DNA of 64,000 nucleotides from Polynucleobacter sp. MG-27-Goln-C1 (lineage in GTDB: Bacteria > Pseudomonadota > Gammaproteobacteria > Burkholderiales > Burkholderiaceae): NCBI RefSeq assembly GCF_018881905.1, contig NZ_JACVPM010000002.1, forward strand, positions 310,001-374,000. Reading direction: 5' to 3'. A program made the translations under genes and the position numbers. Positions 40,399 through 42,325 of this stretch are shown here, piece after piece; positions within the stretch are counted from its first letter, which is position 1; each line of letters begins with the position of its first letter. The notes under the pieces were generated by a model that ran no database searches, was not told where the DNA came from, and saw nothing but the letters and a program-made list of their open reading frames with translations.

Positions 40399-41289
40399 AT
40401 GTTCGGCCTACGTAAAACCCTCGGATCCCTATTTAAATCCAATCAGACTGATGAAGCCTGGTTTGATGCCCTAGAAGAATCTCTCATTCTGAGCGACGTG
40501 GGCCTACCTACGACTGAACAACTGATTAGCAAACTACGTAAAGCCGCTAAATCAGAAAAAGCTAGCAGCCCAGAAGATCTCAAGCAACTGCTCATTCATG
40601 AGGTAGCAAGTCTCTTAAAGCCCTTGGAGCCAATCCCCAATCCTTTGTACGTTCATGATCAAAAGACCACGCCAGAGGTGTGGCTAGTAATTGGCGTTAA
40701 TGGTGCGGGCAAGACCACCACCATCGGCAAGCTCTGCAAACTCTTTCAATCACAAGGTAAATCCGTTTTACTAGCAGCCGGAGATACTTTCCGCGCAGCG
40801 GCACGTAACCAGCTTCTTGAATGGGGTGGCCGTAATCAAGTCGACGTGATCATGCAAGAGAGTGGAGATGCAGCAGCCGTGGCACACGATGCCATTCATG
40901 CAGCGATTTCTCGCAAGAGCGATATTCTGATTATTGATACCGCTGGCAGACTCGCTACTCAAGACCATCTCATGGAGGAGCTGAAGAAGGTGAAAAGAGT
41001 CATCGGCAAGGCCCTTCCTGGGGCACCTCACCAGACTTTGCTCGTTCTTGATGGCAATACAGGTCAAAACGGTTTAAGCCAAGTAAAGGCCTTTCATGCT
41101 GCTCTAGGGCTTTCTGCCTTAATCGTGACCAAATTGGATGGCACTGCTAAAGGCGGGGTCATTTGCGCACTCGCCCACACCCTCAGCAATGGGCCAAAAC
41201 CAGCAGTTTTAGCCTTAGGCAAAGGCGAGGGAATTGATGATTTAGCCCCCTTTACAGCCGCCCAATATTCATCTGAATTATTCAATTAA
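40399..41289 (+). CDS. ftsY: Signal recognition particle receptor FtsY
   Basis: A 296-residue SRP receptor GTPase without the long acidic N-terminal A domain of E. coli FtsY. The G1 loop is GVNGAGKTTTIGKL (residues 99-112), followed by AAGDTFRAAARNQL, IIDTAGRL, TKLDGTAKGG and LGKGEGIDDLAPF. It docks SRP-ribosome complexes at the inner membrane. No clear Shine-Dalgarno sequence precedes the ATG. Adjacency to rsmD/coaD (divergent) and rpoH (same strand) echoes the ftsY-ftsE-ftsX-rpoH locus of other proteobacteria; ftsE and ftsX are missing between them here. Confidence 0.97.
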   Translation: MFGLRKTLGSLFKSNQTDEAWFDALEESLILSDVGLPTTEQLISKLRKAAKSEKASSPEDLKQLLIHEVASLLKPLEPIPNPLYVHDQKTTPEVWLVIGVNGAGKTTTIGKLCKLFQSQGKSVLLAAGDTFRAAARNQLLEWGGRNQVDVIMQESGDAAAVAHDAIHAAISRKSDILIIDTAGRLATQDHLMEELKKVKRVIGKALPGAPHQTLLVLDGNTGQNGLSQVKAFHAALGLSALIVTKLDGTAKGGVICALAHTLSNGPKPAVLALGKGEGIDDLAPFTAAQYSSELFN

Positions 41290-41317
41290 ATCATAGGCTT
41301 ATAGAAGTAAAAAACCA

Positions 41318-41344
41318 TTAGCACTCTCTTGACAAGAGTGCTAA
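41318..41344 (+). promoter_or_regulatory. CIRCE operator (HrcA site) overlapping the rpoH promoter
   Basis: TTAGCACTC at 41318-41326 and GAGTGCTAA at 41336-41344 are perfect inverted repeats separated by nine bases, exactly the CIRCE consensus bound by the HrcA repressor. The spacer contains TTGACA (41329-41334), a perfect -35 hexamer, and TAAAAT (41341-41346, partly in the right arm) could serve as a -10 with TTAGCA as its -35. Either way the operator covers the promoter, 40 bases before rpoH. A site here implies that rpoH is de-repressed when HrcA is inactivated by heat. Confidence 0.93.
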
Positions 41345-41383
41345 AATAGAACCCTACTAATACCTAAAATATATAAAAAGATA

Positions 41384-42325
41384 ATGGTTCAAAAGAAAGC
41401 ATACAAACCGCAATTGCAAGCACGGCAAACATTGCCAGCAGCGCAGACTGCTGCGGCTTCGCTTGCCTTTCCGATGTTGCCTTCCCTTGGGGTTGGCACA
41501 CTCGACTCTTATATCTCGTACGTCAATCGCGTACCTATGCTCAGTGCCGCAGAGGAACTTCACCTCGCGCAGGAATTTCGTCGCACTGAAAATGTGGATG
41601 CTGCGAAAACTTTGGTTCTCTCGCACCTCCGTTTGGTGGTGTCTGTTGCTCGCCAGTATTTAGGCTATGGCATTCCACATGCCGACCTCATTCAAGAAGG
41701 CAATATCGGCTTGATGAAGGCTGTAAAACGCTACGACCCTAACCAAGGTGCACGCTTAGTCTCTTACGCAATCCATTGGATTAAGGCAGAGATTCATGAG
41801 TACATTCTTAAGAACTGGCGTTTAGTTAAAGTTGCAACAACTAAAGCGCAACGCAAGCTGTTCTTTAATTTACGCAGCAACAAACCTACTTTGGCTGCGC
41901 TGACACCAAATGAAGTTGAGGCATTAGCTAAGGCTCTGGATGTCAAAGGCTCGGACGTTAAAGAAATGGAAATGCGTCTAGCTGGTGGTGATATTGCCTT
42001 AGAGGGCGACGACACTGATGATGAGTCAGCCTATGCACCGATTCAGTGGCTGGCTGATAACAGTCAAGAGCCTACTGAGATGATGGCTGCTGCTGCAACT
42101 GATGCTCTACATGGCCCTCAATTAGATCAAGCACTCATGGCTTTGGATGAGCGTAGTCGCAACATCGTCCAATCACGTTGGCTGGCAATGGATGCGGATG
42201 GTAAGGGTACAAAGACTTTGCATGATCTCGCTAGTGAATATGGCATCTCTGCAGAGCGTGTTCGTCAGATTGAGACTGCTGCTCTCAAAAAGATGCGCAG
42301 CCTCTTGCAAACAGAAGCTGCATAA
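41384..42325 (+). CDS. rpoH: RNA polymerase heat-shock sigma factor sigma-32
   Basis: A 313-residue sigma-70 family factor. The RpoH box QRKLFFNLR identifies it. Region 2 includes LVVSVARQYLGYGIPHADLI and YAIHWIKAEIHEYIL; region 4 ends with the helix-turn-helix EYGISAERVRQIETAALKKM. An N-terminal extension of about 30 Ala/Gln-rich residues is longer than in E. coli. It directs transcription of chaperone and protease genes. The ATG has no clear Shine-Dalgarno sequence and lies in an A/T-rich leader. A CIRCE operator lies just upstream. Confidence 0.96.
   Translation: MVQKKAYKPQLQARQTLPAAQTAAASLAFPMLPSLGVGTLDSYISYVNRVPMLSAAEELHLAQEFRRTENVDAAKTLVLSHLRLVVSVARQYLGYGIPHADLIQEGNIGLMKAVKRYDPNQGARLVSYAIHWIKAEIHEYILKNWRLVKVATTKAQRKLFFNLRSNKPTLAALTPNEVEALAKALDVKGSDVKEMEMRLAGGDIALEGDDTDDESAYAPIQWLADNSQEPTEMMAAAATDALHGPQLDQALMALDERSRNIVQSRWLAMDADGKGTKTLHDLASEYGISAERVRQIETAALKKMRSLLQTEAA

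Follow-up and report, generated by a model that had tools for sequence, protein, structure and literature searches.

The window, a 64,000-nucleotide stretch of Polynucleobacter sp. MG-27-Goln-C1 DNA, encodes a 313-aa sigma factor, RpoH (sigma32), on the forward strand at 41384–42325. Its identity was assigned by matches above cut-off to the equivalog model TIGR02392 (384.3 bits, cut-off 323.1) and to NF005143 (399.3 bits, cut-off 241). A CIRCE element, TTAGCACTC-TCTTGACAA-GAGTGCTAA, was located by pattern match in the 64-kb window at 41318–41344, 39 bp before the rpoH ATG. The ORF upstream of it (40399–41289), which we take from its sequence to be ftsY, stops 28 bp before the element. The left arm TTAGCACTC (41318–41326) and right arm GAGTGCTAA (41336–41344), both on the forward strand, match the HrcA/CIRCE regulon operator pattern TTAGCACTC-N9-GAGTGCTAA exactly and enclose the spacer TCTTGACAA (41327–41335, forward strand), which is variable among relatives. 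No second match with up to three mismatches occurs in the window, and 100 dinucleotide shuffles of the window gave a mean of 0.05 matches at that threshold. The exact CIRCE described in the sequence-only reading, with 0 mismatches, is confirmed.

Three sets of rpoH loci were compared. The named set holds 80 titled loci, the best 80 of at least 590 relatives, drawn from Burkholderiales and from other groups, Methyloversatilis and Aromatoleum among them, and is no random sample; the nearest titled relatives in it are Polynucleobacter. One of its loci has no upstream sequence present. The order sample comprises 120 genomes, with several per family, and 117 of these encode RpoH over cut-off in 118 copies. 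The class sample comprises 143 genomes, one per family, of which 128 encode RpoH over cut-off.

The operator lies upstream of rpoH and over its predicted promoter. An extended -10, TG-C-TAAAAT (41339–41347, forward strand), is predicted to be fused to the right arm, with the TG at 41339–41340 and the -10 hexamer at 41342–41347. The first six bases of the left arm (TTAGCA) double as a weak -35-like hexamer, with 18 bp between it and this -10. The start site is predicted about 7 nt past the -10, which would leave a short leader at 41354–41383 on the forward strand. Folding of the leader and gene start (41354–41460) gave no structure above shuffles (z-score 0.15), and Rfam had no match in 41000–42000 up to E 1; an RNA thermometer in the rpoH leader is unsupported.

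The bases that complete the -10 are conserved at rpoH. In the 80 contexts made up of the window and 79 loci drawn from the best 80 of at least 590 relatives, 73 have A at base 29 and all have T at base 30, counting from the CIRCE start. A further 153 rpoH contexts with enough flank, 76 from the order and 77 from the class, were set against 31 groESL contexts picked by a GroES motif. NAT comes directly after the right arm in 113/153 rpoH contexts versus 1/31 groESL contexts, and T is the third base after this arm in 143/153 versus 3/31. The right-arm TG is invariant (153/153). Among the 40 rpoH sites without NAT, 20 read ACT, and CTTGAA is found upstream in 18/31 groESL contexts. The operator right arm plus NAT reads TG-C-TAA-NAT, which is the predicted extended -10 of rpoH.

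The spacer contains a perfect TTGACA (41329–41334, forward strand), as the same reading had noted. Its presence holds, and a role as the -35 does not: it is probably no functional -35, because only 7 bp separate it from TAAAAT (41342–41347), the likely -10, because it is found in close relatives only, and because the -10 uses the right arm. Within the 80 contexts (best 80 of at least 590 relatives) it occurs in the window and L006–L011 only, which are five Polynucleobacter and one uncultured beta proteobacterium; two more genomes of that genus, G031 and G076, also have it. The exact hexamer in these nine close sequences, some of which may be the same strain, would fit a promoter in which TTGACA is the rpoH -35 and the -10 lies further downstream. 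That arrangement is improbable, since at 16–18 bp downstream in the window there is no good -10 (ACCCTA, CCCTAC, CCTACT). Nor does TTGACA occur in the remaining 73 contexts of the named set (best 80 of at least 590 relatives) or in the order (76) and class (77) contexts, most of which retain the right-arm -10.

The genome of the window (2,009,108 bases, 11 contigs, completeness 99.99 %) encodes a single intact hrcA, identified by TIGR00331 (294.4 bits, cut-off 197.2) and also matched by PF01628. At up to three mismatches CIRCE occurs in two places, at rpoH (0 mismatches) and upstream of groES (1 mismatch), and a control pattern (CIRCE read backwards) occurs in one place. No CIRCE was found at hrcA, grpE, or dnaK in the whole genome at this threshold. 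An exact sigma32-type promoter, CTTGAAA-N13-CCCCAT, precedes grpE; the one at dnaK has a single mismatch, in the -35, and groES has CTTGAAA-N13-ACCTAT directly before its CIRCE. The same promoter search found none upstream of rpoH or dnaJ, and upstream of hrcA only weak candidates with 2 mismatches in each box; allowing up to one mismatch per box, the pattern has 12 sites on both strands of the 64-kb window. Autoregulation of rpoH by sigma32 was rejected, as no upstream site has up to two mismatches to CTTGAAA and up to two to CCCCAT/CCCTAT. About 90 bp before the groESL CIRCE there is a pair of ORFs whose translations resemble an IS3-type transposase (L003 7014–8221; G000:C2:221013–222220).

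Since CIRCE is found only at groESL and rpoH, and sigma32-type promoters are found at grpE and dnaK, any HrcA control of grpE and dnaK would have to run through RpoH. The earlier proposal that HrcA controls RpoH, which controls other chaperone genes, would have failed had hrcA been absent. It is supported by the intact hrcA, by the further CIRCE upstream of groES, by the sigma32-type promoters at groES, grpE, and dnaK, and by two genome samples in which CIRCE at rpoH mostly tracks hrcA losses.

CIRCE with up to two mismatches precedes rpoH in 79/79 relatives with upstream sequence (best 80 of at least 590), and in this set the nine spacer bases vary. In the order sample, CIRCE lies 59–230 bases before the RpoH match in 103/118 copies at up to three mismatches and in 101/118 at up to two. 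Counted by genome at up to three mismatches, the site is present in 101/104 order genomes with intact hrcA versus 1/12 without. The three misses despite hrcA (G009, G026, G073) have rpoH sites with 4 mismatches, and the one exception without hrcA (G052) is a genome 84 % complete. A further genome, G085, has an hrcA remnant with an inner stop and no rpoH CIRCE. Order genomes without hrcA belong to families f3, f4, f20, f25, f34, f40, f41, and f44, and other members of f4, f25, and f34 retain both hrcA and CIRCE. Anywhere in the genome, CIRCE at up to two mismatches is absent from 11/12 order genomes without hrcA and from 3/107 with intact hrcA (G006, G030, G073). The backward pattern occurs in 7/120 order genomes versus CIRCE in 105/120.

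The class sample gave a similar result. The rpoH site (up to three mismatches) is present in 86/92 genomes with hrcA versus 9/36 without (Fisher 1.6e-14, with this and the other Fisher tests counting genomes as independent), leaving 6/92 genomes with hrcA that have no rpoH CIRCE. Four of the nine genomes with the site and no hrcA are 62–85 % complete; the other five, G135, G194 (3 mismatches), G213, G246, and G253, have a listed completeness of 97–99 %. CIRCE anywhere at up to two mismatches was found in 99/101 class genomes with hrcA versus 9/42 without, the 42 being the genomes outside the 101 listed hrcA matches. The backward pattern was found in 3/143 genomes, and in 620 bases of even composition a site with up to three mismatches is expected by chance with a probability of about 2e-4. 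In other classes of the phylum, 0/19 genomes have an rpoH CIRCE at up to three mismatches and the best has 6; these 19 are part of the listed genomes, with one rpoH copy taken from each, though several have more.

Loss of the operator where the repressor is lost is thus a strong association with exceptions (9/36 in the class, 1/12 in the order). These data indicate that CIRCE at rpoH is widespread in the class, is usually lost with HrcA, and is not particular to this lineage. HrcA control of rpoH is very likely because of site prevalence with versus without hrcA in the relatives, the order, and the class. With high confidence, we take the rpoH CIRCE for a functional HrcA operator overlapping the promoter of that gene.

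The sequences show the pair of CIRCE sites, the intact hrcA, the sigma32-type promoters, the conservation of the site, its overlap with the -10, and its co-loss with hrcA. That HrcA binds and represses, that it depends on GroEL, and where rpoH transcription starts are inferred, and the following course of events is proposed. At normal temperature, HrcA on CIRCE would cover the -10 (TGC-TAAAAT, right arm), and housekeeping RNA polymerase would make little rpoH mRNA. Free GroEL would keep HrcA active. Unfolded protein would draw GroEL off and release HrcA, and groESL (directly) and rpoH would be transcribed together. RpoH would then act at the sigma32-type promoters of grpE, dnaK, and groESL and raise their transcription. 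HrcA would thereby repress groESL by two routes, one direct and one by way of RpoH; the circuit would be a coherent feed-forward loop with feedback from GroEL.

Two other roles for the element were considered. Once transcribed, a perfect inverted repeat can fold back on itself, and the leader CIRCE of groE and dnaK in Bacillus has been proposed as an mRNA stability element, so CIRCE might act mainly as a hairpin in the rpoH leader and not as a promoter operator. The predicted -10 uses the right arm and would therefore place CIRCE outside the transcript from this promoter, upstream of its start, and the loss of CIRCE alongside hrcA suggests that its role is to bind HrcA; we give the hairpin very little credence. 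It would be equally surprising if rpoH were controlled mainly after transcription, by a leader thermometer and DnaK-dependent stability, with CIRCE a relic. E. coli sigma32 is controlled mainly after transcription, which speaks for such a scheme. However, the leader and gene start show neither structure above shuffles nor an Rfam match, and a relic would hardly keep an exact palindrome beside a varying spacer and vanish with hrcA. Control of RpoH protein stability could act in addition to the favored HrcA operator.

Many rpoH upstream regions also carry a sigmaE-type promoter motif. The pattern GAAC-N2-N15-17-TCNNA occurs in 51/87 order contexts (the 76 plus 11 from further loci), 54/77 class contexts, and 0/31 groESL contexts, and in 23/80 named-set contexts (best 80 of at least 590 relatives), there mostly at other distances. 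Shuffled left flanks gave 1.2, 1.3, 0.2, and 1.1 matches for order, class, groESL, and named set, respectively. With a strict GGAACTT (up to one mismatch), the -10 starts at the terminal TC of the CIRCE left arm in 41/49 order and 33/39 class matches. In the named set (best 80 of at least 590 relatives) this overlap is found in 3/29, the match being mostly further upstream, and an information-content scan of that set showed no sigmaE element. The sigmaE label is based on the generally known consensus and on co-occurrence with RpoE. In the class, the motif is present in 53/65 contexts with RpoE over cut-off versus 1/9 without (p 6e-5), leaving out 3/77 contexts with a borderline RpoE. In the order, it is present in 50/80 with RpoE versus 1/6 without (1/87 dropped; p 0.04), a weak test in which three of the six RpoE-less contexts come from one genus and variants such as GAAACTT are uncounted.

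The genome of the window has no RpoE over cut-off (best match 25.7 bits, cut-off 236.15), and its rpoH has no sigmaE-type motif resembling GGAACTT-N15-17-TCNNA. The order sample includes two further genomes from this genus, and both have only weak RpoE hits below cut-off and no motif. Where hrcA and the rpoH CIRCE are lost and RpoE is kept, the sigmaE half is found in 2/5 class genomes (G121 and G196; not G175, G222, or G257) and 2/4 order genomes (G034 and G115; not G040 or G089). These surviving sigmaE halves carry scraps of the CIRCE left arm. Across the 33 class genomes without an rpoH CIRCE, the motif is present in 4/10 with RpoE and 0/16 without (7 are borderline), and shuffled stretches would give about 1.9 motifs in these 33.

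We lean toward reading the region as a composite switch typical of the class, the Gammaproteobacteria in the wide sense to which the genome of the window belongs. The CIRCE left arm would give the TC of a sigmaE-type -10 (GGAACTT-16-TCNNA), the right arm would give an extended sigma70-type -10 (TGCTAANAT), and HrcA would gate the input to sigma32 from the cytoplasm as well as from envelope stress. The two halves would decay separately: where RpoE is lost, as in Polynucleobacter, the sigmaE half disappears and the palindrome stays, and loss of HrcA removes the palindrome and the sigmaE half stays in some lineages.

HrcA/CIRCE controls groESL and dnaK in Bacillus, Caulobacter, and others. The same repressor family and operator would act here; in contrast to those systems, the target in the window is a sigma factor gene and an operator arm is predicted to be part of the -10. 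E. coli rpoH has several promoters, one of them sigmaE-dependent (P3 type), and many relatives of the window likewise have a sigmaE-type promoter motif at rpoH. Unlike the genome of the window, the E. coli control genome has no HrcA match. A further difference from E. coli is that the sigmaE-type -10 of the relatives is interlocked with CIRCE, and the genome of the window is without both RpoE over cut-off and the motif.

CIRCE upstream of rpoH as such has a precedent: in the part of PMC545781 available, a 2004 account of Geobacter sulfurreducens, an HrcA/CIRCE site is predicted upstream of rpoH (Table 8). As in the window, that CIRCE is exact (-51 from the translation start) and groESL is also a target; hrcA-grpE-dnaK-dnaJ has a CIRCE there too, and hrcA, grpE, and dnaK have none in the genome of the window. 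The same part of PMC545781 contains no discussion that we found of promoter overlap or co-loss with hrcA. Among its references is a 2003 survey covering beta-, gamma-, and epsilon-proteobacteria, which may well include this rpoH wiring. Open-licence PMC texts yielded none on CIRCE, HrcA, and rpoH in beta-proteobacteria, none on CIRCE or HrcA "upstream of rpoH", and none joining CIRCE, HrcA, Ralstonia, and Burkholderia. The interlocked sigmaE, CIRCE, and extended -10 layout with its separate decay was not met in the open-licence texts surveyed; the layout may already be in print.

The usual teaching presents HrcA and sigma32 as two heat-shock systems that work in parallel. Our data indicate that HrcA stands above sigma32 in most sampled families of the class that keep HrcA, and that arrangements without HrcA over sigma32 accompany HrcA loss. 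The element would be a clear case of the same bases serving as operator and promoter, and losses of HrcA and RpoE, which appear to remove different halves of it, provide a natural experiment.

Minor variations of the rpoH upstream region were also observed. In G129 (L327), a second CIRCE-like palindrome lies immediately before the first. G047 (L176, L183) has two rpoH copies with CIRCE at both, and G151 (L313) has two copies with CIRCE at one only.
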